64,000 nucleotides of DNA from Nitrospirota bacterium (GTDB lineage Bacteria > Nitrospirota > JACRHJ01), in contig JAJYHX010000001.1 in assembly GCA_021784575.1 (NCBI GenBank), positions 149,280 to 213,279 on the forward strand, written 5' to 3'. Below the pieces are notes generated by a model that was not told the DNA's origin, ran no database searches, and saw only the letters and a program-made list of their open reading frames with translations. A program made the translations under genes and the position numbers. Positions 43,082 through 61,126 of the stretch are shown one piece after another (position 1 is the first letter of the stretch; each line of letters begins with the position of its first letter).

Positions 43082-43144
43082 GAATTTTCGATATAAAAAG
43101 TTTTTATAATAAGCTAAGAAAACATAAGGCTTTTGATGATTGTA

Positions 43145-43173
43145 TTTACAAGTTTATTTTAAGATGTTATAAT
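43145..43173 (+). promoter_or_regulatory. Sigma70-type promoter of the chemosensory/cytochrome operon
   Basis: TTTACA, exactly 17 nt, perfect TATAAT. Transcription would begin near 43180, about 26 nt before the first ATG. The short leader contains an inverted repeat CGGATT/AATCCG (43177-43193). This is the only convincing promoter found before 61126 on this strand. Confidence 0.65.
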
Positions 43174-43205
43174 CCGGCGGATTCGGAAAATCCGATGGAG
43201 ACAGA

Positions 43206-44456
43206 ATGAGCCTGGTTGGACGCCTGGAGGACCTGGCGCTTGCAGATATCTTCCAGATTATAAGCCTTAGCAAGAAAACAGGAACCCTTATCCTGAAAAA
43301 CAAGGCGAAGGGCTCCGCGGCTGTCGTTTTTAAAAACGGGCAGATAATTCAGGCGGCAACGGACGACATCCGCGACACGCTTGGGAATATCCTTATATCT
43401 AAAGGATATATCTCGGAAGACAGCCTGGCGCGCGCGCTTAATGTTCAGAAGAACATGAAGGGCGTTAAGCGCCTGGGCCAGATACTCGTGGAGACGGGCT
43501 CGATTTCCCGCGAGGTGCTGGAAGAGACGATAAGGGAACAGATAGAGGGCATGGTCTACTCCCTCCTGGGGTGGGAGGACGGGTTTTTCAACTTCGACCT
43601 GGGCTCCGTTTTGGTATCCGACAAGATAGAAGTCGTGACCCAGGATTTCCTGCTCAAGGCAGGCCTGAACCCGGAGTATCTCCTCATGGAGAGCGCCCGC
43701 GTTCTCGACGAGAAGAAGCGGGGGAAAAAGGGAACGCCGGCCTTGCCCGCGGGCGGCGGAGAACCCGGACCCGGGCCCGAGGACAAGACAAAGGTCTCCG
43801 AGTTCGCGCAGTTCCTGCAGGAGCAGGGGGTTGCGCCTTCGGTCCCGTCGCCGGAGGAAAACGCGGCGTCGGACAAGGACAGGGAGCTTAACCAGCTCAA
43901 GTCCATGTTCGAGGAGCTGAGGTTCCCCTCGGCCACGGCGGAGATAACGCTTCTTATACTCAGGTTTGCGAGCGAGCTTGTAAGCCGGTCGGTGCTTTTC
44001 ATGGTCACGAGGGACGAGGTGCGCGGGCTTGGGCAGTTCGGGATGGAGTTCCCGGACGATTCCCCCGACAGGCGCGTAAGGAAGATAAGAGTTCCGGTGA
44101 AGGAGTCGTCCATTTTCTCCGACGTCATCCGCGACAAGCGGACAAAGATAGGCTGCTTCACGGAAAGCGCCTGGGATATGTACCTCATAAAGGAACTGGG
44201 CGGGGAACCGAAAGGGTATTTTCTGGTGCCGATGATAAGCAACGGGAGGGTCGCGGCAATTCTTTACGGCGACAACCTCCCGGACGGCAGGCCTATTCCG
44301 GGCATTTCCGGACTCGAAATATTCGTGCATCAGGCCGGGCTCGCCATGGAAAAGGCGCTTCTTGAGCGCAAGATTTCGGAACTCGAAAAACAGCTGTCGT
44401 CAGGACGCGCCCAGCCCGGGACAGAACAGGCTGAGAGCGGGAGGAAACAGCCGTAA
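43206..44456 (+). CDS. DUF4388 (PATAN-type) protein with C-terminal GAF-like domain
   Basis: A 416-residue cytoplasmic protein. The N-terminal DUF4388 domain (about 1-110, beginning LEDLALADIFQIISLSKKTG) is a module common in gliding, chemosensory and two-component adaptors of Myxococcota and Desulfobacterota. Residues 110-170 continue a helical extension, 175-235 are a Pro/Gly/Glu-rich linker, and 235-400 look GAF-like (FLVPMISNGRVAAILYGDN). The stop overlaps the cheY start (TAATG). It probably acts as an input or scaffold for the CheA pathway; inference from position and domain. Confidence 0.75.
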   Translation: MSLVGRLEDLALADIFQIISLSKKTGTLILKNKAKGSAAVVFKNGQIIQAATDDIRDTLGNILISKGYISEDSLARALNVQKNMKGVKRLGQILVETGSISREVLEETIREQIEGMVYSLLGWEDGFFNFDLGSVLVSDKIEVVTQDFLLKAGLNPEYLLMESARVLDEKKRGKKGTPALPAGGGEPGPGPEDKTKVSEFAQFLQEQGVAPSVPSPEENAASDKDRELNQLKSMFEELRFPSATAEITLLILRFASELVSRSVLFMVTRDEVRGLGQFGMEFPDDSPDRRVRKIRVPVKESSIFSDVIRDKRTKIGCFTESAWDMYLIKELGGEPKGYFLVPMISNGRVAAILYGDNLPDGRPIPGISGLEIFVHQAGLAMEKALLERKISELEKQLSSGRAQPGTEQAESGRKQP

Positions 44457-44824
44457 TGCCGTATTCCGTCCTGATAGTTGAAGATTCAAGGGCCATGAGA
44501 GGGCTTATCAGGGCAACCGTCGAGCAGATGCCCGGTTTTGCGACGTTCGAGGCCGTGAACGGCTTCGACGCGCTGAAGAACCTGCCTGCGCGAAAGTACG
44601 ACCTTATTATTACAGACATCAACATGCCCGACATCAACGGGCTGGAACTGATAAGCTTCGTGAAGGGGCATCCCGGCTACAAGGACATCCCGCTCATCAT
44701 CGTCAGCACGGAGCGCAGCGACGAGGACATGGAACGCGGCCTGAAGCTTGGCGCGTCCGGTTATATAATAAAGCCGTTCAAGGGGAATGAGCTCCAGGAA
44801 CTTGTGAGGAAAGTCCTTAAGTAG
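44456..44824 (+). CDS. cheY: CheY-like single-domain response regulator
   Basis: A 122-residue receiver. The acidic pocket VEDS (8-11), phospho-acceptor D53 in IITDINMPDING, conserved Thr/Ser in VSTE and lysine in IIKPF are all present. No output domain. It overlaps the DUF4388 gene by 1 nt and lies 15 nt before cheA, so it is likely a direct phosphate target of that kinase. A second CheY closes the operon. Confidence 0.9.
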   Translation: MPYSVLIVEDSRAMRGLIRATVEQMPGFATFEAVNGFDALKNLPARKYDLIITDINMPDINGLELISFVKGHPGYKDIPLIIVSTERSDEDMERGLKLGASGYIIKPFKGNELQELVRKVLK

Positions 44825-44839
44825 CAGGAGGATTTTCGG

Positions 44840-46822
44840 ATGGCGGGAAAGGACGAAAGATCCAGGGGCGAGTTCCTGGCCGAGAGCGAGGACATCCTCG
44901 AAGACCTTGGACAGCAGCTTACCCGCATGGACGAAATGACCGAGTCCGGCGAGGTTGACCCGGATGTCGTCAACGCCATATTCCGCGGAGTCCATTCCTT
45001 AAAAGGCCTCTCCGGCATGTTCGGTTTCGAGGGCATCTCGCAGCTCTCCCACCGGCTCGAATCGCTCCTCGACGCCCTGCGCCTGGGCAAGCTGCCCATC
45101 TCCCATGAAATGACCTCCGTAATATTCGCCGCTATGGACAGGCTCAAGATACTCTCCGAGGACATAAGCCGGGGCGGGGCCGAGCGCTCGGACTACGCCG
45201 ACATATCCTCCATGATAGAGGACGCGCTCTCCAGGGGCCATGGCCGGGATTCAAAGGACCTCACGGACGAAATAGAGATAGACTCCCGGATGCTGAAGGT
45301 GCTGACCGAATACGAGGAGCATCGCCTCCGGGAAAACATCAAGGCCAAAAATTCCATACTCCTTGTAACGGCCCGTTTCGACCTTGCGAGCTTCGACAAA
45401 GACCTGACCTCCCTTAACGACCGGCTGAAGGTTATGGGCGAGATAATCAGCACCCTGCCCGCCACAGGCACGGGCCCGGAGGCCGGCATAGAGTTCAATA
45501 TACTTGTCGGGACAAAGGAGCATGTCGAGAAATTTGTTTCGGAGCTGTCCGGGCCGGACACCGCGGTCTCGGTAATCAAGTACAAGGCGGCGCAGAAAAA
45601 GGCCGAGCCGGAGGCCAAGACGGTGCGGAGCCTGTCCAGGACTATCCGCGTGGACATCGCCCGCCTCGACAGGATAATGAATATAGTCGGAGAGCTGGTG
45701 CTCTCGAAGAACATCATTACACGGCTCTCGACGGACCTTAGGGCCGTGCAGGGATTCCAGGGGCTGGCGATAGACCTCTACAAGGCCTCGCGCGGGCTTG
45801 AGAGAAAGCTTTCCGAGCTTCAGGAGGGGGTTATCGAGGCCCGGATGGTCCCTATCGGCCAGATATTCACCAGGCTCTCGCAGGCGGTGAGGAAATACTC
45901 GGCGGAAGTGGGCAAGGATATACGCATGGAAATGCTCGGCGAGGACACGGAGCTCGACAAGCTCGTGGTCGAGGAAATATCCGATCCGCTGATGCACCTG
46001 ATAAGAAACGCCATAGACCACGGCATAGAGCCGCCGCAGGAAAGGGCTCGGCGCGGGAAACCGCCGCGCGGAAAGATACGCCTGAACGCATACCCGAAAG
46101 GAAACAGGGTCGCCATATCCGTCGAGGACGACGGCGGCGGCATAGACCCGGAAAGGATCTGGCGCAAGGCTGTCGAGAAAGGGCTTGCGGAGCCTTCCGA
46201 GACGCTCACAAGGCGCGAGATGCTCGAACTTATATTCCTGCCGGGCTTCTCGACCAAGGAAGAGGTGAGCGAGGTTTCCGGGCGCGGCGTCGGCATGGAC
46301 GTGGTCAAGCGGAACGTCGCAAAACTCTCCGGCATCATAGACATAGACACCGAAATCGGCAGGGGCACAAATATCACCATAACCCTGCCCATCACGCTCG
46401 CTATAATAAAGGGGCTGATGGTGGAGTCCGGCGGGGAGAAGTTCGCCATGCCGCTTTCGGCTGTGTCCGAGACGCTTATGTTCGACCCGGAGAATGTTAA
46501 CTCCGTCGAAAGGCGCGAGGTGATAACGCTCAGGGGCGAAACCCTGCCGCTCTTGAGGCTCGACGAGGTATTCCGGCTTCCGAAGCAGGAAGACCGGGAG
46601 TTTATTTATGTGGTTGTGGCGGGGATTGCGGAACGCAGGATAGGCTTTGTGGTGGACAGGCTGCTCGGGCAGCAGGAAGTTGTCATAAAGAGCCTGGGGG
46701 AGAAGCTTAAGGAACTGCCGGGCATTGCCGGGGCTACGGAGCTTGGCGACAACGAGGTCGTGCTCGTCCTCGACCTCGAATCCCTGATAAACGAATCGAC
46801 CAAGAAAAGGCAGATGCGCTAA
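44840..46822 (+). CDS. cheA: Chemotaxis histidine kinase CheA
   Basis: Central kinase of the chemosensory array, 660 residues. The HPt domain (about 5-105) carries the phosphorylated histidine in FRGVHSLKGLSGMFG. A region without an obvious P2 match follows (about 145-255), then the dimerisation domain (IRVDIARLDRIMNIVGELVLSKN, from about 268), the ATPase core (HLIRNAIDHGIEPP, DDGGGIDPE, SGRGVGMDVVKRNV) and a C-terminal CheW-like domain (about 520-655). All catalytic boxes are intact. It is followed 5 nt later by the AAA ATPase. Confidence 0.95.
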   Translation: MAGKDERSRGEFLAESEDILEDLGQQLTRMDEMTESGEVDPDVVNAIFRGVHSLKGLSGMFGFEGISQLSHRLESLLDALRLGKLPISHEMTSVIFAAMDRLKILSEDISRGGAERSDYADISSMIEDALSRGHGRDSKDLTDEIEIDSRMLKVLTEYEEHRLRENIKAKNSILLVTARFDLASFDKDLTSLNDRLKVMGEIISTLPATGTGPEAGIEFNILVGTKEHVEKFVSELSGPDTAVSVIKYKAAQKKAEPEAKTVRSLSRTIRVDIARLDRIMNIVGELVLSKNIITRLSTDLRAVQGFQGLAIDLYKASRGLERKLSELQEGVIEARMVPIGQIFTRLSQAVRKYSAEVGKDIRMEMLGEDTELDKLVVEEISDPLMHLIRNAIDHGIEPPQERARRGKPPRGKIRLNAYPKGNRVAISVEDDGGGIDPERIWRKAVEKGLAEPSETLTRREMLELIFLPGFSTKEEVSEVSGRGVGMDVVKRNVAKLSGIIDIDTEIGRGTNITITLPITLAIIKGLMVESGGEKFAMPLSAVSETLMFDPENVNSVERREVITLRGETLPLLRLDEVFRLPKQEDREFIYVVVAGIAERRIGFVVDRLLGQQEVVIKSLGEKLKELPGIAGATELGDNEVVLVLDLESLINESTKKRQMR

Positions 46823-46827
46823 AAATT

Positions 46828-47631
46828 ATGTACGAAGAGTTCTACGGACTTAAAACGAGGTGTTTCTCCAAGACGCCCGACCCGGCTTTTCTTTACATGA
46901 GCCGCTCTCACGCCGAGGCGCTGGCGAGGCTACAGTACGCCGTGGAGGAGCGCGAGGTGGCGCTCCTGACGGGCGAAGTCGGCTCCGGCAAGACCACCCT
47001 TACGCGCGCCCTGATAGATTCCCTGGACAGCTCCTTCAAGCCCGTGTTGATTACGAACCCGCGGCTCTCCCCGGCGCAGTTCCTCCGGGCGCTGGCCAAT
47101 AAGCTCGGCGCCGAAAGGCCGATGCACTACAAGGCCGACCTTGTCGAGCAGATAAATTCCTTGCTGTATCAGTTCCATGAGAGAGGGCAGTGCCCCGTAA
47201 TTATCATAGACGAGGCGCAGTTGATACCGGGCAAGGACACGTTCGAGGAAATAAGGCTCCTTACCAACTTCCAGCTCGACGACATGAACCTCCTCTCTCT
47301 TGTGTTTGTCGGTCAGACGGAGATAAAGGACAGGCTTAAGCGTCCGGCATACAGGGCGCTTGTGCAGAGGATAGGAATAGCGTATCACCTCCCGCCCCTG
47401 ACGAAAGAGGAAACCGGGATGTACGTGGCGCACCGCCTTAAGGTGGCGGGCGGGAGGGGGAAGATTTTCGACGAAAAGGCAATCGAGCTTATACATGCCC
47501 GCTCCGGCGGCGTGCCGAGGCTCATAAATACCATAGCCACGGGCGCGCTCCTCGCCGGTTTCGGCGCAGGGGAGAGCCTGGTCGGCGCGGGGCTTGTCGA
47601 GGACGCCGTAAGGGACCTGGGGTTCCTCTAA
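46828..47631 (+). CDS. ExeA/GspA-type AAA ATPase
   Basis: A 267-residue ATPase of the type found with general secretion and pilus systems (ExeA, MshM). Typical start MYEEFYGLKTRCFSKTPDP; Walker A GEVGSGKTT (about 50-58), Walker B VIIIDEAQ (about 128-135), sensor VFVGQTE and the C-terminal lid SGGVPRLINTIATGAL. No peptidoglycan-binding domain or membrane segment is seen. Such a protein between CheA and CheW is unusual; it might organise or position the array, by analogy with ParA-like proteins in other chemosensory clusters. Confidence 0.85.
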   Translation: MYEEFYGLKTRCFSKTPDPAFLYMSRSHAEALARLQYAVEEREVALLTGEVGSGKTTLTRALIDSLDSSFKPVLITNPRLSPAQFLRALANKLGAERPMHYKADLVEQINSLLYQFHERGQCPVIIIDEAQLIPGKDTFEEIRLLTNFQLDDMNLLSLVFVGQTEIKDRLKRPAYRALVQRIGIAYHLPPLTKEETGMYVAHRLKVAGGRGKIFDEKAIELIHARSGGVPRLINTIATGALLAGFGAGESLVGAGLVEDAVRDLGFL

Positions 47632-47646
47632 AAAAGGCTTAAGTGT

Positions 47647-48468
47647 ATGGATTTACTGGAGATAAGAAAAAAGGCCAGGGAGGCAAAGGAGGCCAGGGAG
47701 CAGGCGGAGCCTAAAGCGGCAAGCCAATCCCCCGAATCTCCATTGCAGCAGCCCGGCTCCGCCGCCGGAAAGGCGGCAGGGAGGCGGGTCTCCCGGAAAA
47801 AGAAGGCATCGCGGGGGAAAACGGCTGATGCCGGGGCCGCGGTTGTGCAGCCGGAAGAAGGGCCTCCGGTGTTAGTGGAGGGTCCCGGGACCGGGATAGT
47901 ATCAGACGCCGTGCCTGCTCCGCCGCCGGACGTTGAAGCGGCCCGCGAAGCTTCTCCCGCCCCGTCCGCAGGGCCGGAAGAGCGGCCGGCCGCGCCGCCC
48001 TCCGCCGAGGCGGCTCCCGCGTCTTTCGTTCCTCCGGAGAGACTTGAGCTTCTGTCGTTCATGCTCGCGGGCGAGGAATATGCGCTGAAGATGGAAGAGG
48101 CCAGGGAGATAATCAGATGGAGAAGGCCCACAAAAGTCCCGCGCGCGCCGGAACATATAATCGGCATAATCTCTCTTCGGGGCGTTATACTGCCGGTTTT
48201 CGACATAAAAAAACGCCTGGGCCTGGGCGAGCTTGAGCCGTCCCGCCGGACGAGGATTGTAGTCGTTTCGGACGGCGGCTCTTCCTTGAGCGGGATGGTG
48301 GTTGACCGCATAACGGGCGTCAGCTCCATGTCAAGAGAAGGCATAGAGCCGCCTCCGTCGGTGATAGGCGGGAACGAGGCGGAGTTTATCGAAGGTGTCG
48401 GAAGGGCGGACGACGGCGGCAAGAGACTGCTTATTTTGATAAAGACTTCAAAGGCGCTTTCGACGTAA
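47647..48468 (+). CDS. cheW: CheW-domain coupling protein with long disordered N-terminus
   Basis: A 273-residue protein. Residues 1-130 are Ala/Pro/Glu/Lys-rich and probably disordered, with a basic patch (RRVSRKKKASRGK). The CheW domain follows (about 132-270), with FMLAGEEYALKMEEAREI, IIGIISLRGVILPVFDIKKRLG and MVVDRITGV. It links receptors to CheA. The extension is far longer than in ordinary CheW and may bind a neighbour such as the AAA ATPase. A second, compact CheW is at 55447-55947. Confidence 0.88.
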   Translation: MDLLEIRKKAREAKEAREQAEPKAASQSPESPLQQPGSAAGKAAGRRVSRKKKASRGKTADAGAAVVQPEEGPPVLVEGPGTGIVSDAVPAPPPDVEAAREASPAPSAGPEERPAAPPSAEAAPASFVPPERLELLSFMLAGEEYALKMEEAREIIRWRRPTKVPRAPEHIIGIISLRGVILPVFDIKKRLGLGELEPSRRTRIVVVSDGGSSLSGMVVDRITGVSSMSREGIEPPPSVIGGNEAEFIEGVGRADDGGKRLLILIKTSKALST

Positions 48469-48547
48469 CGAGTGAAGCTGTACTGCTATATCGGCATGTT
48501 CGAGTTTTTCAAGATTAACAAGCTCTAAGGACAAAAAGGAGGAGAGG

Positions 48548-49534
48548 ATGTTCCGAGGAGGTGGAAAGGCCGCGCTGCTGGCCGTGTTACTGGCGGCTGT
48601 TGCCGTTGTCGCGGGATGCGCCGGCATACAGGAAAGCGAGCCGATAATACCGGTGAGCGAGTATGAAAAATTAATTGTCGGAAGGCTGGACGCAAATTAC
48701 GTGGGCGACCAGGCGTGCCTCGCAAAGTGCCATGCGCACGACCAGATCAAGAAGTGGTTCGACGCATCGACCATGGGGGCGCAGCTAAGTTCGGATTCCG
48801 GTCTGCCGCTTGTGAACTGCGAGTCCTGCCACGGCCCGGGGAGCCTTGCAATTGCGAACATAAGGGTGATAAACGGGAGGCGCACCTGCGACTACTCCAC
48901 GTTTATCGACCTGAAACACCTCCCGAAGCAGGCGCAGTCGCTCATCTGCCTTAAATGCCATACGCAAAACGCCACGTTCAGCCTGCACTACTGGAACACG
49001 AGCAAACACAACCTATCCGGCGTCTCGTGTTTCGACTGTCATAATGTCCATAAGGGTGTGGACCTTAAGGTTGGCCGGAGGAACGTGGCGCAGCTGTGCT
49101 ACAAGTGCCACCCGGAGATAAAGGCGCAGTTCTCTCTTCCGAACCATCACCCGGTCAACGAAGGGGCGGTTACGTGCCTTGACTGCCACGACCCGATGGG
49201 CTCGCCCAACAGGTATATGCTGAAAGACGGGAGCATGAAGGAGCTTTGCGGCAACTGCCACGCCGAGAAGACCGGGCCGTTTGCCTTCGAGCATGGGGAC
49301 GTTACGGAGAAATGCGTCAATTGCCATCGCCCGCACGGCTCCGTGAACCAGCACCTGCTCAAGGTGCGGCTGCCGTACCTGTGCTACCAGTGCCACGAGG
49401 CCCAGCACCCCGTGACGAATGATTATCCCAACCAGAACCAGTGGGCGCACACGATATGCACGGATTGCCACAGCGAGATACACGGCTCCGATACGCCCGG
49501 ACTTTTCAGCAACGGCGGAACATTCACGCGTTAA
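48548..49534 (+). CDS. Decahaem c-type cytochrome, MtrA/DmsE/PioA family
   Basis: A 328-residue multihaem cytochrome with exactly ten CXXCH motifs (CLAKCH, CESCH, CLKCH, CFDCH, CYKCH, CLDCH, CGNCH, CVNCH, CYQCH, CTDCH). Length and haem spacing fit MtrA-type proteins, which sit inside an MtrB barrel and carry electrons across the outer membrane. The signal ends VAGCAG, so Cys24 may be lipidated. The next gene encodes the barrel. The gap before it (79 nt) is the largest within the operon, with a strong AAGGAGGAG ribosome site. Confidence 0.92.
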   Translation: MFRGGGKAALLAVLLAAVAVVAGCAGIQESEPIIPVSEYEKLIVGRLDANYVGDQACLAKCHAHDQIKKWFDASTMGAQLSSDSGLPLVNCESCHGPGSLAIANIRVINGRRTCDYSTFIDLKHLPKQAQSLICLKCHTQNATFSLHYWNTSKHNLSGVSCFDCHNVHKGVDLKVGRRNVAQLCYKCHPEIKAQFSLPNHHPVNEGAVTCLDCHDPMGSPNRYMLKDGSMKELCGNCHAEKTGPFAFEHGDVTEKCVNCHRPHGSVNQHLLKVRLPYLCYQCHEAQHPVTNDYPNQNQWAHTICTDCHSEIHGSDTPGLFSNGGTFTR

Positions 49535-49555
49535 GGACCAATAAGGAGGGATTTT

Positions 49556-51565
49556 ATGAAAAAGATCATATTAATCGCCCTGCTGGTCCTTACGGCTGTC
49601 CTTATGGACGGCAGGGTATTCGCGGACGGAAATGCGGCGCCGGACACCGCCGCATCGGATGGGAGTCAGACGGGGGCCGACGGCGGCTCGCAGGGGAATA
49701 CCAATTACTCCCTGCCGCCGGAGGGCAACGCATGGCTGGGCTATGATTTCTTCGACCTGCAAGGATCGAGGAAGGCCGCCGAGTATGAATATCCATACAG
49801 CTCCGTGGTGGGCGGGTTCAATGTTGTTTATGTCCCTATGCCAACAAGGTTGGAGGCGAACCTCGACTGGGTGAACCCCAACAGCTGGGATGCGGACCTT
49901 TCCTTCGCATACAAGGACATGATAAAGGTCGATTATACCGGGTGGGCGCTCTGGCGCAACTACAACCACTACGGTCTGATAGGAGGAGAATCAGCCCCCC
50001 CGCCGGTTCCACACCCGCTGGGGACGCCCTTCGACGAGAACCCCGGGGACAATTATTTTACCGACGACCGGGACAACAGGCTGTCCCTGGTGCTGAAATG
50101 GCCGGACAGGCCGTATCACATATTCGTGAACATGCGGCGCTTCGAGAAGGAAGGGACGATCCAGGCGAGGTTCTACAATGTAATTAATCCGACCGATCAC
50201 TTTAAAGAATCCCTGTCAAGGGATATAGACTGGGTGACCACCAAACTTAACCTGGGTATAAACGGTCATTTCGGTCCCGTGGAGGCCGAGTACAGCCATA
50301 CCGCGAAGACCTTCGATCCGCATGGAGAGGTTGAACTGCCTGTTGTGGAAAACGGTCTTTATCTAAGCCACGTGCCGCAGTACGACGACAACCTCGATAC
50401 CGTGAAACTGCATACCGACTACACCGGAAGGATCGTGGCGGACAGCACGTTCATAAACGGCGAGCGCAGGAACGAACACTCGCAGGCGGACCTTAAATAC
50501 CACAGGGCATACGGCGACGTTATCCTGATACCCGCGAACGGCCTGACCGTGGCGATACGCTACCGCGGCAACTGGACGGACGAGACCGTCGAGGCCGTCC
50601 CGGCGGGAACAGGCAGTTCGACACCTACCGTTACCCCGGGGGCTATCCCCCTGACAGCCGCCCCTATGAGCTACAGGTCGAACAGGGCCGAGGTATCCGT
50701 CCGGTATAACCCGGTCACCGTGCTCGCATTCAACGCCGGCTACTCCTATGAGAACCTCCAGAGATACAATGTCGATGCATGGAATGCGATAGTATCCAGC
50801 GGCTCTCCCATAATCCCGTTCCAGAGCATACCATCACAGCAGAACATCCATAAAGTAACCGCCGGGGTAAGCTCCGACCCGGCCAGATGGATAAACTTCA
50901 GAGGCAGCGTGGAATATACCTACACCGGAGAGCCCGCATACCCTGTAAACCCGAAGAATTCCTACAAGGCGCGCGTGGACGCGAACATCATCCCCCTGGC
51001 GGAACTGAGCGCGAACCTGCATTACAGGTTCACCGCGGACGACAACAACACCTCCGACATGCACTCCGATTACAACAACCCCGGCGTCGGTCTGATATGG
51101 TCTCCCGGCGGGTCGTTCACGATGTCCGTAAACTACGACTACTTCCGCTACAACATGAAGAGGGAAATGATTCTTCAGCCCCCGCCGCTCACGGTGGTGT
51201 CGCTTTCGGAGGAGCTTGCGCCGTATGACGACCAGTCCCATGTCTACTCCGTCTCCGGCGGTTATGTCTTTGCCGTCATTCCGCTCACGCTGGACGCGGA
51301 GTTTCACCAGAGCTTCAGCAAGGGTGTATTCAGAATTGTCGAGACAGGCAGCGCGGGCAGCACCGAGGGGCTTGGCGAGCTTGCCGACCTTGCCGACAGG
51401 GAGACCGGCGGCAGCATCACGGCGAAATACGCCCTGCACAAGGGCTGGGGATTATCTGCCACTTACGAGATAAACAATTTTGTCGACTTCAAGAACAAGC
51501 CCCAGGATGGGCCTCAGAACGGAACGGCACAGACGGTAATTATGCTGGCGACAAAAAAATGGTAG
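49556..51565 (+). CDS. MtrB/PioB-family outer-membrane beta-barrel
   Basis: A 669-residue outer-membrane barrel with signal peptide (about 1-24), an Asp/Gly/Ser-rich N-terminal stretch and many alternating aromatic/polar strands up to a C-terminal ATKKW. The decahaem-associated barrel family is suggested by YDFFDLQG, FAYKDMIKVDYTGWALWRNY and by its position directly after an MtrA-like gene. I see no cysteine in it, so the N-terminal CXXC pair of Shewanella MtrB is absent. With the cytochrome it would form a porin-cytochrome conduit. Confidence 0.88.
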   Translation: MKKIILIALLVLTAVLMDGRVFADGNAAPDTAASDGSQTGADGGSQGNTNYSLPPEGNAWLGYDFFDLQGSRKAAEYEYPYSSVVGGFNVVYVPMPTRLEANLDWVNPNSWDADLSFAYKDMIKVDYTGWALWRNYNHYGLIGGESAPPPVPHPLGTPFDENPGDNYFTDDRDNRLSLVLKWPDRPYHIFVNMRRFEKEGTIQARFYNVINPTDHFKESLSRDIDWVTTKLNLGINGHFGPVEAEYSHTAKTFDPHGEVELPVVENGLYLSHVPQYDDNLDTVKLHTDYTGRIVADSTFINGERRNEHSQADLKYHRAYGDVILIPANGLTVAIRYRGNWTDETVEAVPAGTGSSTPTVTPGAIPLTAAPMSYRSNRAEVSVRYNPVTVLAFNAGYSYENLQRYNVDAWNAIVSSGSPIIPFQSIPSQQNIHKVTAGVSSDPARWINFRGSVEYTYTGEPAYPVNPKNSYKARVDANIIPLAELSANLHYRFTADDNNTSDMHSDYNNPGVGLIWSPGGSFTMSVNYDYFRYNMKREMILQPPPLTVVSLSEELAPYDDQSHVYSVSGGYVFAVIPLTLDAEFHQSFSKGVFRIVETGSAGSTEGLGELADLADRETGGSITAKYALHKGWGLSATYEINNFVDFKNKPQDGPQNGTAQTVIMLATKKW

Positions 51566-51573
51566 GAGGAACA

Positions 51574-52515: not shown

Positions 52516-52528
52516 GAGGAGGAAGGCA

Positions 52529-55435
52529 ATGAGAACAGGTCGTCTTAAATCCCTCCGGGTAAGGGTGCTCGTAATCGTAACCCTGGTGCTGCTGGGCGTT
52601 ATATCCGTTTCCACCGCCGCCCTGACGTACGGGTTTACGACCCTTTACACCCAGGCCCTCCTGGGCAAGGCGTTCGCGGTGGGGGATTCCTTCAAGAGCA
52701 ACCTTCAGGACTCGCTGAACCTTGGGCTGCCCCTGGAATCCCTCTCCGGCGTCAACGAGCGCTGCGCCCAGTTGACCGGCAAGGACTCGGACATCGGATA
52801 CTGCATGGTGGTGGATCCTTCCGGAAAGATTCTTTTTTCCAACAAGGCGGGGGACATAGGCAGGACGCTTACCGACCCGGTCAGCGTGGCCGCGGCGAGG
52901 GCAACAACGGAGAATAAGAAGAGCGCGCCGATATTCGAGTACGGGCACAAGAGCTACTACGACACGGTCATACCGCTTTCCGACCCGGAGGGGAAGCACG
53001 TAGGCTCCATCAGGCTGGGCCTGAACTACGACAACGTGTACGCTCAAAAGCGGAAACTTATATTCAGGTCGATGCTCATAGCCGTCGGCTCCATGATTCT
53101 CTCGATCATCGTTTTCGCCTTCTTCGTCTCAAGGTTTATAACCGGCAGAATATCAAGCCTGGTAATCACCGCCAAAAAAATAGCGAGCGGCGATTTGACC
53201 AAGCTTATCGAGACTGATTCGGACGACGAACTGGGCGAGCTCGGCAAGGCCATTAACGGCATGGTGTCGAACCTCAAGAACATGCTGGCGAAGGTGAAGG
53301 ACGCCTCCATAAGCGTCGCCAACGCCACCGAGCGGATAGCCATGAACGCAAAGAAGATATCCGAAGGCTCGGAGGCCCAGCACGAACTCACGGAAACGAC
53401 CTCGTCCTCGATGGAGGAGATGAACGCATCTATAAAGGAAGTTGCAGAGAGCGTGGATTCCCTTTCGTCGTCCGCCGAGTCGTCGTCCTCGTCTATCATG
53501 GAGATGGCCGCATCCATAGACCAGGTCGCGGGCAGCACCGGGCAGCTCTCCGCTTCGGCGGAATCCACCTCCTCTTCGATTATGGAGATGGCGGCGTCCA
53601 TAAAACAGGTCGCGGAGAACATGGACGTGCTCTCCGGCTCGGCGGAGGAGACCACGGCCTCCGCAACCGAGATGGGCGCCTCCATAAAAGAAGTCGAGGC
53701 CATATCGAAGGAGTCGGCGTATCTCTCCGAACAGGTGACGGAAGAGGCGTCCGGGCTGGGCATGAGGTCGGTCGAGAAGACCATCGAGAGCATGGGCAAC
53801 ATCAAGGAAACGGTCAATAAGGCGGCGCAGGTAATCGAACAGCTCGGCGTGCGCTCCGAAGAGATAGGCGAAATACTTACCGTCATAGACGACGTTACAG
53901 ACCAGACCTCGCTCCTTGCGCTCAACGCCGCGATACTCGCCGCCCAGGCGGGCGAGCACGGCAAGGGTTTCGCCGTCGTGGCCAACGAGATAAAAGACCT
54001 GGCGGAACGCACCTCCTCGTCTACCCAGGAGATAGCGAAACGCATAAGCGCCGTGCAGACGGAGGCCAAGGACGCGGTGAAATCCATCAAGACGGGCCGC
54101 GAGAGCGTGGAGCAGGGGGTCAGGATAGCGAACGAGGCCAAGGAGGCGCTGAAGAAGATAGTGCAGAGCTCCACCCGCGCCGCCTCGATGTCCAAGGGCA
54201 TAGAAAAGGCGACCGTGGAGCAGGCCGAGGGGATACGGCAGGTTTCCGCGGCGATGCTGTCCATTTCCAACATGGTGCAGCAGATACTTGCGGCCACGCA
54301 GGAGCAGAGCCAGGGGTCCGAGCAGATTATGGTGGCGTCCGAGAGCATGAACGACATAAGCCGCCAGGTAAAGACCGCCATGGCCGAGCAGACGAAGGGC
54401 AGCAAGCAGATTACCGTCGCCGTCGAGAACGTCTCGGACAAGGTTCAAAATATCGCTGCGGCTACATCCGAGCAGAAGAAGGGGAGCCAGGAGATAGTGC
54501 GGGCGCTCGGCAAGATAAGGGAAATAACGGCCGCTTCCGTGAAACTGGCCGAGGAGATGGACCAGTCCGTAACGGAGCTTTCCAGCCAGGCCGACCTCCT
54601 GAGGGAGGAGATAAACCACTTCTCGCTCATGTCCCAGTACAGCCTGTCGTCCGGCAAGATGCGCCTTGGAGTCCTGCCGCTCGAGGAGCCGGAAATCATG
54701 AAGAAGCGTTTCATGCCGCTTGCCGGCTATCTCTCGGACAGCCTTGGCGTGGAGGTGGAGGTTGTGCCGGGGCAGGATATGGCCGCCGCCGTTAACGACC
54801 TCGGCCTCGGAATTACCGATGTCTGCTGGCTCGGCCCCGCGACATATGTCGAAGCGAGATACAAGTACGGAGTCGAGGCTGTCGTAAAATCCATAGGCAA
54901 GGGAAACACGTTTACGCGTTCGGTTATCGTTGTAAAGGACGGTTCGGATATTATGGACGTAAAGGATATACGGGGCAGGAGCTTCGCCTTCGGGAACGAG
55001 AAATCCACCTCCTCGCACCTGATGCCGAGGGCGTTGCTGGGCGACGCCGGCATAAGGCTCTACGACCTTAAGTCCTACAAATACCTTGGCCGCCACGATG
55101 CGGTTGCAAAAGCCGTCATGGCCGGAGAGTGCGATGCCGGCGGGATGATGGAATCCGTGGCCAGGGAATATCTGAACAAGGGCTTAAAGATAATCTATTA
55201 TTCGGATTCGATCGCGAACTTTAATTTCTCGGCCGGCAAGAAAGTGGACTCGGCCATACGGGAAAGACTCAAGAAGGCGTTCGTCGATCTTTCGACGGCG
55301 GACCCGGCGCAGGCCAGGATACTCAAGGCCATAGACTCGGAATGCGAGGGCTTTACGGACGTAAGCGACGGGGAATACGACGCCATCAGGAAAATGATGA
55401 AGAGGCTGTACGGCATAGATTACTCGGTCTCCTGA
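52529..55435 (+). CDS. Chemoreceptor with cytoplasmic C-terminal PhnD-like binding domain
   Basis: A 968-residue methyl-accepting chemotaxis protein. Order: TM1 (about 11-36), periplasmic sensing domain (about 37-178, Cache-like), TM2 (about 180-202), HAMP (203-255), and a long signalling coiled coil (256-700) with the conserved tip [21 protein letters not shown]. The extra part is a complete PhnD/phosphonate-binding-type periplasmic-binding fold (about 711-965; [39 protein letters not shown]). It comes after the signalling helices and therefore lies in the cytoplasm. Residues about 292-403 contain four 28-residue repeats. It is followed by CheW. Confidence 0.9.
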
Positions 55436-55446
55436 AAGAGGCGGCG

Positions 55447-55947
55447 ATGCAGGAAGGCGCGCTAAAACGAGAAGACAGGCGGGTCCAGCTGGCGGTATTC
55501 CGCGCCGGCGCGGGCGAATACGCCGTGGACATAATGAGGATAACGGAGATTATCAGGCCACAGAAGCTCACGCTGATCCCGAAGGCCCCGGATTTTATCG
55601 AGGGCGTCATAAACCTGCGCGGAAGCGTCGTCCCGGTGATAGACATCAGGAAGAGGCTTGGGATAACACATTCAGGCGAAGAGACCAAAAGCAAGATACT
55701 CATACTGCTTATAGACGGCAGGAAAGTCGGGGCGGTGGTTGACGACGTGAAGGAAATCCTTTATATGGACATGGGTTTGATAGAAGACGCCCCGGAAATA
55801 GTAAAGGGGTCGGAAGCGCAGTTCCTCCAGGGAATAGGCAAGTTCGGCGAGAGACTCATAATGGTGCTCGACCCGGAGAAGCTCCTTAACCCGGGCGAAC
55901 TGGCGGAACTGGACCGGGCGCGGACAGATCCGGAAATCAAGGGATAG
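55447..55947 (+). CDS. cheW: CheW coupling protein
   Basis: A compact 166-residue CheW. Recognisable parts: LAVFRAGAGEYAVDIMRITEII, FIEGVINLRGSVVPVIDIRKRLG and VVDDVKEIL. The start is set at the ATG with AGAGG upstream, 11 nt after the receptor stop; a longer frame would run back into the receptor gene. Adjacent to its likely receptor partner. Confidence 0.92.
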   Translation: MQEGALKREDRRVQLAVFRAGAGEYAVDIMRITEIIRPQKLTLIPKAPDFIEGVINLRGSVVPVIDIRKRLGITHSGEETKSKILILLIDGRKVGAVVDDVKEILYMDMGLIEDAPEIVKGSEAQFLQGIGKFGERLIMVLDPEKLLNPGELAELDRARTDPEIKG

Positions 55948-55956
55948 GGCTTGGTG

Positions 55957-57933
55957 ATGGAGATATTGAAGAGACTCGAGGCGGAAGACCCGGAGGCGCG
56001 GCGCCTCGCTGCGGCGGAGATGGCCGAAAACGTTTCCGCCGAATATATCCCGCCGCTCCTGAAGGCCGTCGCCGACCCAGACTGGCGGGTTCGCAAGACC
56101 GCGCTCGACGCGCTCGTTTCCTACGGCGGCGAAGAGGTCTTCGAGGGGCTGTACCGGTCGCTTTTTTCCGAGGATAACGCCGGCGCTCGCAACTCTGCGG
56201 CGGAAGGACTGATAAGGCTTGGGCCTCCGGCGGCGAAGGCTCTTTCCATGCGGCTTGGCGAGCCGGACAGGGATGTCAGGAAATTCATCGTTGACATCAT
56301 AGGCGAGATAGGCGATTTATCCTGCGTGGACGCCCTGATTGGCGCGCTAGACGACAGCGACATGAACGTCCGCTCCTCGGCCATGGAACACCTGGGCAAG
56401 ATGAAGGCAAAGAGCGCGATTCCGGCGCTTATACCGTTTTTGAAGGCCGGCGAGCAGTGGCTCGCTTTCAACGCCGCCGCGGCGCTTGGAGAGCTCGGAG
56501 ACGTGGGAGCCGTCGGCGCGCTCATGGAGGCATCCAGGGACGACTTCCTTCGGGAGCCTGCGCTCGACGCGCTTTACAGGATTGGCGACCCCTCGGCCTG
56601 GCCGGTTTTCAAGGATGCGCTGAAAGACGAAGTCCCGGTTATCCGGGAAATAGCCGTAAAGGGCGCGGCCAGGATAATGGCGTCCTCGCCGGAGCCGGGC
56701 GCGCTTGCGCAAGAGCTAAAGTCGGAGCTTGGCCCGGATGAGGCGGAATTCATAAAAGGGCTTATCAGCTCCTACGAGCCGGAGCTAAGCAGGTCCGCCG
56801 CCAGCGTTGCCGGATGGATGAGGGAGCGAGGAGCGGTGGGCGCCATAGCGAGGCTTCTGTACGACGACGAACTGCGTGAAGACGCGATGGCCGCGCTTTT
56901 CGAGATTTCCAGGGACGGAGTGGAGCCCCTGATATTTCTGCTGAACGACGAAGACGCGGCGGTGAGGCGCGCCAGCGCGGAGCTTCTTGGCGTCGCGGGG
57001 GACGCCAGGGCGGCGAAATTCCTCCTGCCGCTCCTCGACGACGAGGACGGACATACCCGTTCCGCGGCGGTTGCGGCGCTGGGCAGGCTTAAGGCGGAGA
57101 AATCCGCGCTCAGGATGCTGGAGCTTCTGCGGGACGAATACCCCGACGTCCAGGAAACGGCGATAAAGGCCATCGCATCCATGCCCGGCGTAAGGGACGA
57201 GCTTGACCTTCACGCACTCGCACAGGACCCCGAGCCTTCCTTCAGGAGGAATATAGCGTTTCTGTGCGGCCTCCTGGGGAAAGGGAACGCTCCGGTCATC
57301 GAGGGGCTTTTAAAGGACGAGGACGCAGAAGTCCGCGCCGCGGCTGTCGATTCCATCGCCACCGCTGGCGAGGACGCGTCGCTCGGCGCGGTGCTCAGGT
57401 GCGTCGTGGACGAGGACGCGAGGGTGCGGCTCTCCGCGGTAAACGCCCTGATGGGCAAAAACGTCCACGGAGCGGCGGAACCGATGTTCCTGCTTTTGAA
57501 AGACTCCGACCCCTGGGTGCGGGCGCAGGCCGCAAGGGCCTTGTCTTACGAGCCAGACCCGAGGGTTTTCGCCGCGCTTCTTTCGCTTTTGTCGGATGTC
57601 TACGGCCCTGTCAAGATGGAGGCTGTCGAGGGGCTCGGCAGGACGGGAAAGCCGGAGGCCGGAAAGCATATACTGAGCGCGATGGCGGACAGGGACCCGG
57701 AGGTGCGGAAGGCGGGCATATCCGCCGCGTTGTCGTTGAACGCTCCGGAAACGCTTCTTAATCTGAAGACGCTTGCGAAAGACCCGGACTGGAGCGTCCG
57801 GAAGGCCGCGCTCGAAGCGCTGGTCCGCGCGCGTGTTGAGGGGAGCGCGGAGCTTCTGGCCGCGGCGGCGGAAAGCGACCCGGAGCGAATTGTAAGAGAG
57901 GCCGCATCAAAGCTTGTCGGGGAAGGCAAATGA
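55957..57933 (+). CDS. HEAT-repeat scaffold protein
   Basis: About 658 residues made of some twenty HEAT/PBS-lyase-type repeats of about 31 residues (for example DPDWRVRKTALDALVSYGGEEVF and DDEDGHTRSAAVAALGRLKAE), with no catalytic domain. Such solenoids act as protein-binding scaffolds. Frames open at TTG 55951 and GTG 55954; I chose ATG 55957. The stop overlaps cheR by 4 nt. HEAT proteins are seen in some chemosensory clusters beside CheR, where a role in adaptation has been proposed; the partner here is unknown. Confidence 0.85.
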   Translation: MEILKRLEAEDPEARRLAAAEMAENVSAEYIPPLLKAVADPDWRVRKTALDALVSYGGEEVFEGLYRSLFSEDNAGARNSAAEGLIRLGPPAAKALSMRLGEPDRDVRKFIVDIIGEIGDLSCVDALIGALDDSDMNVRSSAMEHLGKMKAKSAIPALIPFLKAGEQWLAFNAAAALGELGDVGAVGALMEASRDDFLREPALDALYRIGDPSAWPVFKDALKDEVPVIREIAVKGAARIMASSPEPGALAQELKSELGPDEAEFIKGLISSYEPELSRSAASVAGWMRERGAVGAIARLLYDDELREDAMAALFEISRDGVEPLIFLLNDEDAAVRRASAELLGVAGDARAAKFLLPLLDDEDGHTRSAAVAALGRLKAEKSALRMLELLRDEYPDVQETAIKAIASMPGVRDELDLHALAQDPEPSFRRNIAFLCGLLGKGNAPVIEGLLKDEDAEVRAAAVDSIATAGEDASLGAVLRCVVDEDARVRLSAVNALMGKNVHGAAEPMFLLLKDSDPWVRAQAARALSYEPDPRVFAALLSLLSDVYGPVKMEAVEGLGRTGKPEAGKHILSAMADRDPEVRKAGISAALSLNAPETLLNLKTLAKDPDWSVRKAALEALVRARVEGSAELLAAAAESDPERIVREAASKLVGEGK

Positions 57934-58799
57934 TTTTTACCGAGGACATAGTTGAGCTTCCGGATGACGTTTTCCGGCTGATGAGGGACTTTATCCGGGA
58001 TTACTGCGGGCTTTATTTCGACGACTCCTCGAAGTATCTTCTGGAGAGGCGGCTCTCGCGCCGCGTCCGCCTGCACCAGTTCAACACCTTCCTCGACTAT
58101 TACCGCTTCTTGTCCTACGACAGAAGAAGGGAAGCGGAGCTCGTGGAGGTGGTGGACAGCCTTACCACGAACGAGACGTATTTCTTCCGGGAAGAGGCGC
58201 AGCTCAGGGCGTTCAGGGATGAAATACTCCCTGAAATCATAGGCCCCGGATGCCAGAAGACGTTAAAGGTGTGGAGCGCGGGCTGTTCAACCGGCGAGGA
58301 GCCGTATACAGTAGGCATGATACTCTCTGAGGCCGGGTTCCTCGGCGGCGCGGAGGTGGAGATAATAGGCAGCGACATAAACCAGAAGGTCCTGACAGCC
58401 GCGCGCAGGGGCGTCTACAGGCGCGGCTCCTTCCGCGTCATAAAGGACGACATGATGCGAAAATATTTCAAGGAGGAGTCGCCGGGGAGCTTTAGAATAT
58501 CGGACGATATAAAAAAGCTCGTGACGTTTTCCCACTTAAACCTCTTCGACCCGTACCGCTTGAGCTTCCTGAGGGGATTTGACGTAATATTCTGCCGGAA
58601 CGTGATGATATATTTCGACCCCGAGTCGAAGAAGAAACTCATAAAGATGTTCTACGACAAGCTTTCGCCGGGCGGGTATCTCCTGCTTGGCCACGCAGAG
58701 TCGCTCTTGAACGTTACGACGGCATTCAGGCTCGTTCACCTAAGAAACGACATGGTTTACCAGAAGCCGGTTTCAGTCAGGGAAGCGATGCCAATATAG
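57930..58799 (+). CDS. cheR: Chemoreceptor methyltransferase CheR
   Basis: A 289-residue SAM-dependent glutamate methyltransferase that methylates chemoreceptors for adaptation. N-terminal all-helical domain (about 10-80), then the SAM site in KVWSAGCSTGEEPYTVGM (about 109-126), the conserved CRNVMIYFD (about 223-231) and PGGYLLLGHAESL. No TPR extension. Starts inside the HEAT gene stop (ATGA overlap). Confidence 0.94.
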   Translation: MIFTEDIVELPDDVFRLMRDFIRDYCGLYFDDSSKYLLERRLSRRVRLHQFNTFLDYYRFLSYDRRREAELVEVVDSLTTNETYFFREEAQLRAFRDEILPEIIGPGCQKTLKVWSAGCSTGEEPYTVGMILSEAGFLGGAEVEIIGSDINQKVLTAARRGVYRRGSFRVIKDDMMRKYFKEESPGSFRISDDIKKLVTFSHLNLFDPYRLSFLRGFDVIFCRNVMIYFDPESKKKLIKMFYDKLSPGGYLLLGHAESLLNVTTAFRLVHLRNDMVYQKPVSVREAMPI

Positions 58800-58818
58800 A
58801 GAACGGACGCTGCCCCGG

Positions 58819-59862
58819 ATGAAAAATATAAGAGCGCTTGTGGTCGATGACTCGCTCCCGAACAGGAAGGCCCTGACCGGGATACTGGGACAATCGCCGG
58901 GAATAGAGGTCGTCGGCGTTGCCGCGGACGGCGAAGAGGCCATAGAGAAGGTCATAAGGCTGAAGCCCGACCTCATCACACTCGACCTCGAAATGCCGCG
59001 GATGGACGGCTTCACGTTCCTCCGGTGGCTTATGAGGGTCGCGCCGACGCCGACCCTGGTGATAAGTTCAAAAGACGACGACAGGAGCGTTCTTACCGCG
59101 CTTGAGTTCGGGGCCGTCGATTTTCTGCCGAAGCCGGTCTCGCCGGAAGACATGGAGGAGCTCGGACGGGACCTCGTCGAGAAGGTAAGGTTTTTCGCCG
59201 GGATCGAAATATCCAGGGTAAGCAGGTCAATGGACCTGCTCCAAAAAATAGGCCCCGGCGGGGACGAGGAAGAAAACCAGGCGCCCTCGGTGCGGCATGT
59301 CGATATTGTCGCAATAGGGGCCTCCACGGGCGGGCCTCCGGCGGTGCAGGCAATATTGGCCGGATTGCCAAGGCGGTTTCCTGCGGCAATCGCGGTAAGC
59401 CAGCATATGCCGCCGATATTCACGAAGTTCTTCGCGGAGCGGCTTAACAAGGTATGCAAGATCTCCGTGAGGGAGGCCGTCGAGGGAGAGCCGCTTCTTC
59501 CGGGAACGGCCCTCGTGACGCCGGGAGGGTATCATATGTCCTTCAAGAGGATCATGGGCGGGGTTGCGGTCTCGCTTAAGGAAGCGCGTGAAAGCGACAG
59601 ATACATACCCTCCGTGGATATTATGATGCGATCGGCCGCTCAGAATTACGGCAAGAGGACGATGGGCGTCCTCCTGACGGGTATGGGAAACGACGGACGG
59701 GAGGGCATGTCGCTTATAAAAGGACTCGGTGGGACAACCATCGCGGAATCTCCGGAGACCGCGGTGATATACGGCATGCCGAAAGAAGCTGTTGAGGCTG
59801 GGGCGGTGGACATATCCGCGCCTTTGGACAGGATAGCCGCCGAGATAATAAGGCTCTGCTGA
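58819..59862 (+). CDS. cheB: Chemotaxis methylesterase/deamidase CheB
   Basis: A 347-residue receiver-methylesterase. Receiver: VDDSLPNR (9-16), phospho-acceptor in TLDLEMPRMDG, lysine in FLPKPVSP. The esterase domain (about 155-345) has the triad: Ser in GASTGGPPAVQ, His in SQHMPPIF, Asp in TGMGNDGREG. It removes methyl groups added by CheR, so the operon has a full adaptation pair. Confidence 0.95.
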   Translation: MKNIRALVVDDSLPNRKALTGILGQSPGIEVVGVAADGEEAIEKVIRLKPDLITLDLEMPRMDGFTFLRWLMRVAPTPTLVISSKDDDRSVLTALEFGAVDFLPKPVSPEDMEELGRDLVEKVRFFAGIEISRVSRSMDLLQKIGPGGDEEENQAPSVRHVDIVAIGASTGGPPAVQAILAGLPRRFPAAIAVSQHMPPIFTKFFAERLNKVCKISVREAVEGEPLLPGTALVTPGGYHMSFKRIMGGVAVSLKEARESDRYIPSVDIMMRSAAQNYGKRTMGVLLTGMGNDGREGMSLIKGLGGTTIAESPETAVIYGMPKEAVEAGAVDISAPLDRIAAEIIRLC

Positions 59863-59890
59863 CACCAGGGCCGATGCACGGGAGGTAGAT

Positions 59891-60721
59891 TTGGACAGCA
59901 GAGAAGGGCACAAAGACCTGAAGGCGAGGACGGAGGAATTCCTCCAGATATTCAGAAAAGGGGAGGAGTTCACGCAGGAGGTTCTGACGGAAAACGAGAA
60001 GCTTCGCTTCAAGCTTGTTCAGCTTGAGGAAGAGAACAAACGGGCCAGAGAAGTCGATCCCACAAAGGTAAGGACGCTCGAAGAGCAGGTAACTTCGCTC
60101 GAGGAGGAGAACCGGCGCCTGATGGAACGGTACCGGGAGGTGGAACTGGAGAACAAGAGCTTCGCCGAGAAATACCTCGAGGTGGAGCAGGAGAACAATA
60201 ACCTGGCGAACCTCTACGTCGCAAGCTACCAGCTCCACTCGACGCTCGATTTTTCAGAGGCTGTAAAGACGGTGCTTGAAATAATAATGAACCTTGTAGG
60301 CGCTGAGAAGTTCGCGATAATGCTCCTGGACGAAAAGACGATGGAACTCTCTGCGGTGGCGTCTGAGGGCGTGAAGCTGGAGGACATGCCGTCCATAGCC
60401 ACGGGCGATGGTGTAATTGGCCGCGTCGCAGCCGAGGGCGAAAGCTATTATGCCAATGACGCGCCCGGCGAAAAGCTGGACCTCTCGCTCCCGATAGTCT
60501 GTATTCCGCTTAAGATAAAGGAACACGTAATCGGCGTTATAGTGATTTACAGACTGCTCGTGCAGAAGAAGGAGTTCACGGAAGTGGACTACGAGCTTTT
60601 CTCCATGCTCGCCGGACATGCGGCGACGGCCATATTCTCATCGAGGCTTTATTCTCAGTCGGAGAGAAAACTCGTAACCATCCAGAGTTTCCTTGACCTC
60701 ATAAAAGAGAAACCGGCTTAA
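59891..60721 (+). CDS. Coiled-coil plus GAF domain protein
   Basis: A 276-residue soluble protein with a Glu/Leu-rich coiled coil (about 15-105; NEKLRFKLVQLEEENKRAR) and a GAF domain (about 115-265; LVGAEKFAIMLLDEKTMEL, ATGDGVIGRVAAEGESYY). The start is TTG, with GGAGG five nucleotides before. GAF domains bind small ligands or haem; no haem-ligating residue can be assigned with confidence. It lies between cheB and the last cheY, so it is probably a signalling partner of that regulator. Confidence 0.8.
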   Translation: MDSREGHKDLKARTEEFLQIFRKGEEFTQEVLTENEKLRFKLVQLEEENKRAREVDPTKVRTLEEQVTSLEEENRRLMERYREVELENKSFAEKYLEVEQENNNLANLYVASYQLHSTLDFSEAVKTVLEIIMNLVGAEKFAIMLLDEKTMELSAVASEGVKLEDMPSIATGDGVIGRVAAEGESYYANDAPGEKLDLSLPIVCIPLKIKEHVIGVIVIYRLLVQKKEFTEVDYELFSMLAGHAATAIFSSRLYSQSERKLVTIQSFLDLIKEKPA

Positions 60722-60751
60722 GCAGGCCGCATCTGTATAAGGAGCGAAAAA

Positions 60752-61126
60752 ATGGCTGAAATAAATTTCCTGATAGTCGAAGACTCGCCAACCATGAGGC
60801 AGCTTATTTCCTTTGCCCTGAAGAGGGTGCACGGGGCCAAGATAATGGAGGCCACGGACGGCATAGACGCGCTGAAGAAGCTCTCGGCGCAGAAATTTGA
60901 CCTCATCCTGACGGACATAAACATGCCGATAATGGACGGCCTGAAGCTTGTCTCGCTTATCCGGGGGAACGACCAGCACAAGGACATACCGATAATCATA
61001 ATAACGACGGAGGGCGCCGAGGAGGACAGGAAAAAGGGCCTGGCTCTGGGCGCGAACGCCTATCTCTCGAAGCCGATCCAGACGGCGGAGCTCTTAAAGC
61101 TCGTGAACGAATACGTCAAGAAGTAA
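60752..61126 (+). CDS. cheY: CheY-like single-domain response regulator
   Basis: A 124-residue receiver, with VEDS (9-12), phospho-acceptor D54 in ILTDINMPIMDG, TTE and lysine in LSKPI. Last gene of the operon. It overlaps the DUF3786 gene on the other strand by 11 bp at their 3' ends. It is similar to the first CheY but clearly distinct, so the two may divide output and phosphate-sink roles. Confidence 0.9.
   Translation: MAEINFLIVEDSPTMRQLISFALKRVHGAKIMEATDGIDALKKLSAQKFDLILTDINMPIMDGLKLVSLIRGNDQHKDIPIIIITTEGAEEDRKKGLALGANAYLSKPIQTAELLKLVNEYVKK

Follow-up and report, generated by a model that had tools for sequence, protein, structure and literature searches.

Within a 64,000-nucleotide stretch of Nitrospirota bacterium DNA (assembly GCA_021784575.1, contig JAJYHX010000001.1, positions 149,280 to 213,279 of the forward strand; hereafter the window, numbered from its first letter), the genes for an MtrAB-type outer-membrane electron conduit lie inside a chemosensory (che) operon. 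An MtrA-type lipoprotein cytochrome (48548..49534), a divergent, GSU2204-like MtrB/PioB-type outer-membrane barrel (49556..51565) and a periplasmic PF04392 substrate-binding protein (51559..52515) precede a chemoreceptor, i.e. a methyl-accepting chemotaxis protein (MCP; 52529..55435), all on the plus strand. Conduit and signalling genes are genetically coupled, and comparison across the phylum shows that the conserved unit is MtrA-MtrB-binding protein-receptor rather than a che operon with a conduit, embedding in a che operon being limited to two families. We lean, if only slightly, towards the view that the trio of MtrA, MtrB and binding protein is the sensory input module of a non-flagellar chemosensory system. 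This suggests that the conduit lets cells sense electron acceptors on the outside, whether in addition to respiration through it or in its place.

Results

The window CheA and MtrA were searched first in 61 genomes and, in a second round, across 396 genomes of the phylum, and 73 loci of the window's MtrA type (GSU2203-type) were read, 64 of which were assessable. At 56 of these 64 a PF04392 binding protein is encoded as the second gene after MtrA, directly after MtrB, and 50 of the 56 add either a histidine kinase or a Cache chemoreceptor: 39 carry an MCP and 11 a PhnD protein plus histidine kinase. One more has a PhnD protein alone, and three of the remaining five are cut by contig ends. Canonical MtrAB loci, in contrast, have no such binding protein (0/9) and a receptor (an MCP nearby) in one case (1/9); nor do an MCP, a kinase or such a binding protein stand alongside the canonical MtrA loci in a Planctomycetota record (L004) and in L005. 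The unit with its receptor occurs in some 14 families (family numbers being those of the tool), and away from che operons this MtrA type is mostly still followed by MtrB, the PF04392 protein and a receptor. An earlier reading of the window, made from the sequence alone (the sequence-only reading), had linked chemosensory and MtrAB genes, and this link recurs both in the two che-embedding families and in the wider set. Its choice of the conduit within a che operon as the unit holds in those two families, whereas conduit plus binding protein plus receptor is what is conserved.

In the MtrA tree, kinase-type loci as one clade were rejected by the approximately unbiased (AU) test (p 0.0001), so the type of receptor must have been swapped more than once while the trio stayed. 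For che-embedded loci, one clade is compatible with the test (AU p 0.59). A quick MtrA tree separated the two families, as if insertion into che operons had happened twice independently, but the same test leaves room for a single origin. MtrC-like neighbours are found at 18 related loci, and in a variant from family f26 (L058, L059, L085, L095, L097) an MtrC-like protein with 13 haems separates the binding protein from a short MCP.

CheA and MtrA genes adjoin in the window genome, in three congeners, in a sister genus (G005) and in seven genomes of family f5 (G009, G026, G041, G047, G052, G057, G062), while G018 and G079 are consistent with the che-embedded layout, contig ends intervening. A layout unique to this one genome, the outcome that the sequence-only reading had set against itself, is thereby ruled out. 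The MtrA proteins of family f5 are only 53-57% identical to that of the window, yet gene order is kept: wherever the contig extends far enough the slot is constant, with CheW1 followed by MtrA-MtrB-binding protein-MCP and then by CheW2 and a HEAT-repeat protein. An additional receptor precedes MtrA in G005, and in most f5 genomes a large protein does so (749-909 amino acids where complete, 8-10 haem motifs); the two examined have MtrC/MtrF domains, and together with MtrAB this protein may form a three-part conduit. A close CheA is present in 107 and a close MtrA in 74 of the 396 genomes, other members of this che family being without a conduit. As a third arrangement, a divergent MtrA of this type lies next to DUF4388-CheY-CheA-ATPase genes at a contig end of G131 (L049, family f13).

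The window operon comprises 15 co-directional open reading frames (ORFs) on the plus strand (43206-61126), all of them present in an ORF check. It starts with a DUF4388 (PATAN-type) protein bearing an MshE-type cyclic di-GMP (c-di-GMP) motif (43206..44456; PF14332, with NF053729 above cut-off), CheY-type response regulator 1 (44456..44824; PF00072), the histidine kinase CheA (44840..46822), an AAA_22 ATPase (46828..47631; PF13401) that by gene order takes the place of GSU2221 in Geobacter, and CheW1 (47647..48468; PF01584). After the multihaem cytochrome, the MtrB_PioB barrel, the PF04392 protein and the MCP come CheW2 (55447..55947; PF01584), the HEAT-repeat protein (55951..57933; PF13646), the methyltransferase CheR (57930..58799; PF01739), the methylesterase CheB with a receiver domain (58819..59862; PF01339, PF00072), a coiled-coil GAF-domain protein (59891..60721; PF13492) and CheY-type response regulator 2 (60752..61126; PF00072). 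The longest ORF for CheW2 (start 55342) overlaps the MCP gene, which the ATG at 55447 avoids. The named families score above their Pfam gathering scores and, with Hpt, dimerisation (H-kinase_dim), HATPase_c and CheW domains in CheA as well as the adaptation enzymes CheR and CheB, the operon encodes a Che system. ORFs and Pfam agree with the co-directional genes of the sequence-only reading (CheA, two CheW, CheR, CheB, two CheY, receptor, cytochrome, barrel and binding protein), whose parts list is correct as to the families named but left out the DUF4388/c-di-GMP-motif protein, the AAA ATPase, the HEAT-repeat and GAF proteins and the receptor's PhnD domain.

Upstream lies a sigma-70-type promoter with an extended -10 (TTTACA-17-TATAAT, 43145..43173, plus strand), earlier called a good one. 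It is the top-scoring of 11 matches in the region, for which chance predicts 7.2 +/- 2.4, and both hexamers are unchanged in two congeners. Intergenic distances run from -7 to 30 nt with the sole exception of cheW1-mtrA (79 nt, the longest), and GC content is even across the operon (0.53-0.64; window 0.578). A separation of the cytochrome genes by signals of their own, a possibility raised in the sequence-only reading, did not materialise: congener comparison revealed no conserved promoter-like site in the cheW1-mtrA gap, and no strong internal terminator was found between the cytochrome genes and the rest of the operon, which is also free of Rfam riboswitches. Given short gaps, even GC content, conserved promoter hexamers and no conserved promoter-like site before mtrA, all 15 genes are likely, judging from their spacing, to share one transcript. 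A perfect 17-bp palindrome, TATAAAAAGTTTTTATA (43092-43108), is situated 5' of the promoter and kept in two congeners; it may be an operator or else an element of the divergent ATP synthase a-subunit gene (42340-43011).

These data speak to whether conduit and signalling genes share the locus by chance or hitch-hiking, that is, as unrelated genes in one operon or as a mobile cassette without any functional link. Restriction of che embedding to two families, with its possible single origin, would be compatible with such a scenario; we nonetheless regard it as very improbable, considering that gene order is kept at 53-57% protein identity, that the trio recurs with a receptor in about 14 families while the nine controls are devoid of the binding protein, and that GC content is even and spacing tight.

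As for the conduit, the window cytochrome scores above cut-off with TIGR03508, the NCBIfam model for decahaem cytochromes of the DmsE family, and the MtrA profile matches PDB 6r2q chain A (2.4e-52), a chain labelled cystathionine beta-synthase in the file. 6R2Q is the Shewanella MtrCAB complex, in which chain A is MtrA. Alignment of 21 homologues reveals nine invariant CXXCH motifs, an extra first site of the form CX3CH in 20 of the 21 and, in most, a G-C lipobox at the N-terminus. The window protein is likely decahaem, as the sequence-only reading had it, albeit with nine CXXCH and one CX3CH among its ten sites, so that one is unusual. This CX3CH is CLAKCH (residues 57-62); the exception among the 21, L010, has CXXCH instead and no binding protein. 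The nearest named NCBIfam families are GSU2203 for the cytochrome (219 bits, cut-off 325) and GSU2204 for the barrel (71 bits, cut-off 350), both scores being below cut-off. The barrel passes MtrB_PioB (PF11854; 26.7 bits, cut-off 23) but stays far below TIGR03509 (19 of 240 bits) and the NF041027 cut-off, and at E 0.01 its homologues match the GSU2204 family in 17/17 and MtrB_PioB in 13/17 cases. Its profile found no relative by sequence among solved structures, and an AlphaFold2 model built from only three near-identical sequences was uninformative (predicted local distance difference test score, pLDDT, 24.7). We call the barrel MtrB-type on account of family profiles and its position directly after MtrA.

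The window receptor combines sCache_3_2, HAMP and MCP signalling domains (Pfam) with two transmembrane (TM) segments and has no haem motif. Its C-terminus is a second binding-protein domain in addition to that of the PF04392 protein (itself assigned by Pfam and PDB relatives), this one of the PhnD type (residues 713-950; relatives PtxB, AioX and ArrX) and predicted to be cytoplasmic because only two TM segments are present. MCPs with such a C-terminal PhnD-type domain and no TM segment after the signalling domain are encoded in the window and at L009, L021, L025, L066 and L068; apparently, they use in the cytoplasm a fold that is normally of periplasmic type.

All partner histidine kinases of sufficient length to list carry CXXCH at residue 89. 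This position is flanked by TM segments around residues 5-27 and 171-194, which puts it in the periplasm, and a haem bound there covalently could exchange electrons with MtrA. MtrA-MtrB-PF04392-PhnD-kinase units with this periplasmic CXXCH are found at L036, L047, L054, L060, L073, L074, L076, L084, L087, L090 and L093. The periplasmic sensor of these kinases (L036 tested) matched neither a Pfam family nor a haem sensor of known structure, the one PDB match being weak and unconvincing. In che clusters that have no conduit, MCPs with a single CXXCH are often found in the receptor slot, as they are next to the conduit in G005; several contain PF21563, and the G005 operon has both receptor kinds. 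The G005 haem sensor aligns with the solved structures 3b42 and 3b47 across its haem-binding CQSCH site. These two are presumably the sensor domains of Gsu0935 and Gsu0582. Both of the latter are MCP sensor domains with covalently bound haem (Tran et al.).

The kinase-type units bear on yet another scenario, namely that the conduit is output and not input, its expression or assembly answering to the signalling genes, with binding protein and receptor detecting the acceptor and the pathway turning the conduit on. Some of these units carry an NtrC-type regulator (L060, L084), the usual two-component layout for regulating neighbours, but most units have an MCP, which does not itself act on transcription, and no regulator; since, by Pfam, the window operon encodes no DNA-binding protein either, we judge such control improbable here.

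The host genome (2.1 Mb, 96.7% complete, 14 contigs) has its closest named MtrA records in 'Nitrospirae bacterium' metagenome-assembled genomes (88-90% identity). Flagellin was not found in this 96.7% complete genome by a search that does detect it in control genomes, so the system does not qualify as flagellar chemotaxis, with the flagellar motor as output. Type IV pilus/type II secretion family ATPases are present, and MCP loci number only three. Steering by flagella, which the sequence-only reading had entertained, is unlikely here. The genome has a second MtrA-MtrB pair, a canonical one (contig C5, L029, 8996-12305; MtrB_PioB 264 bits) without sensory genes beside it. Therefore, the window conduit need not be the respiratory one.

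Discussion

We infer electron conduction and its direction, a report to the receptor with the binding protein as relay, and an output, along the following lines. MtrA inside the MtrB barrel would bring the periplasm into electrical contact with the cell surface, and the redox state of the conduit or the flux through it, relayed by the periplasmic binding protein, would set the state of the chemoreceptor array; in relatives, the relay may also run via a haem-bearing receptor. Signals from CheA would then pass via CheY1/CheY2 and the DUF4388/c-di-GMP-motif protein and end in an output that is not flagellar, namely type IV pili, attachment or biofilm, with CheR and CheB providing adaptation. Since flagellin is missing, a c-di-GMP motif is present and Geobacter offers an analogy, pili, attachment or biofilm are a likelier output than swimming.

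The strongest competitor sees the conduit as respiratory: the operon would co-produce a wire and a taxis or attachment pathway, and the receptor would get no report from the conduit but sense something else, either some soluble compound that the binding protein takes up as ligand or an energetic consequence of respiration. We consider this doubtful, albeit to be taken seriously. Haematite and magnetite up-regulate GSU2203/2204; in Shewanella, Mtr genes work together with a Cache MCP via respiration and proton-motive force, without being a dedicated sensor; the window MCP is free of haem motifs; the f5 loci include, as expected of a respiratory conduit, an MtrC-like surface cytochrome; and eight loci have MtrAB without the binding protein. 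What such a conduit leaves unexplained is that binding protein and receptor accompany it even with no che operon near, that a kinase whose haem motif is periplasmic may serve as the receptor and that canonical MtrAB of the same phylum lacks such neighbours. It is the steady pairing with exchangeable receptors, together with periplasmic haem motifs and a separate MtrAB, that makes us favour a sensory conduit over a respiratory one sharing its promoter. Whether a trans-outer-membrane cytochrome-porin conduit can serve as the antenna of a chemoreceptor or kinase, so that the electron-accepting or -donating power of surfaces is gauged electrically and not by ligand diffusion, is a bolder proposal; we hold it to be possible, short of probable.

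Several points weigh against a sensory role. Adjacency implies coupling, not direction, and the pathway could regulate the conduit. The enrichment over canonical loci (Fisher test, 2.5e-7 for the binding protein, 1.7e-4 for the receptor) is inflated, and its true significance weaker, because loci share ancestry. Eight GSU2203-type MtrAB pairs lack the binding protein, which MtrAB therefore does not need in order to act. The window operon has no gene for an outer-surface MtrC. Moreover, with no haem motif in the window receptor, direct haem-to-receptor transfer is impossible here, and the relay would have to go through the binding protein or through a soluble redox compound.

If the conduit does sense, it would represent a new class of sensor and bear on the open question of how bacteria locate and judge solid electron acceptors. 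The conduit-binding protein-receptor module is a genetically defined candidate for direct sensing of the extracellular redox state, and it sets possible sensing conduits apart from respiratory ones. The sequence-only reading knew of no described system with this exact layout. The MtrA-MtrB-PF04392-receptor unit and its embedding in a che operon indeed appear undescribed, their component parts being of known kinds, although precedents exist in Geobacter (the electrode-sensing network Esn, GSU2203/GSU2204) and Shewanella. No publication describing the unit was found in a literature search that was short on subscription journals, and a survey of Mtr systems (PMC8805035) makes no mention of chemotaxis, methyl-accepting, histidine kinase, signal transduction or Nitrospir.

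Comparison with known systems

Like MtrCAB (6R2Q), the window system has an MtrA matching by profile and a barrel that passes the Pfam cut-off of MtrB_PioB, but its MtrA is a lipoprotein with CX3CH as first site, its barrel is divergent, and its operon has sensory neighbours in place of MtrC. To gather at minerals, Shewanella needs Mtr genes as well as a Cache MCP; such congregation and electrokinesis share with the window the pairing of Mtr genes with a Cache-domain MCP, yet involve separate genes and a flagellar output and are explained by respiration and proton-motive force without a dedicated conduit. The PhnD-fold domain of the window receptor and, in relatives, the lone PhnD protein beside a kinase recall binding protein-kinase sensors such as AioX/ArrX; the window differs in that its PhnD domain forms the C-terminal, cytoplasmic part of an MCP and that the system includes an electron conduit. 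The sensor of the periplasmic c-haem chemoreceptors known from Geobacter (PF21563; PDB 3b42, 3b47), with one CXXCH, recurs in receptors that occupy the same slot of related che clusters, unlike the window receptor with its Cache domain and no haem motif.

The closest parallels are found in Geobacter. In G. sulfurreducens, GSU2220 is the CheW gene esnB, GSU2221 an ATPase gene and GSU2222 the CheA gene esnC, and GSU2222-2221-2220, in the gene order described, equals the CheA-ATPase-CheW order of the window. Loss of esnB or esnC by deletion compromises growth on electrodes but leaves that on Fe(III) oxide unimpaired. A diguanylate cyclase and a receptor of class 40H also belong to the Esn network, and a cyclic GMP-AMP (cGAMP) reporter goes up when esnB is disrupted; class 40H-annotated receptors and a connection to c-di-GMP are shared with the window family. 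Differences are that the EsnA receptor is encoded elsewhere and that GSU2203/2204, some 16 locus tags distant, are not part of the cluster. Geobacter che clusters of the delta-proteobacterial beta group, to which by our inference GSU2220-2222 belongs, have CheA, CheW, CheB and CheR but, unlike the window operon, no MCP gene; one is reported to control extracellular matrix. As for the conduit, GSU2203 (OmcK) and GSU2204, the induction of which on haematite and magnetite was noted above, are the nearest named families for the window pair, whose proteins fall below both curated cut-offs, and they are not among the conduits deleted in the Geobacter deletion studies compared here. With related conduit genes (GSU2203/2204) and similarly arranged CheA/CheW genes that have an electrode phenotype, Geobacter makes the question of a sensing conduit testable.

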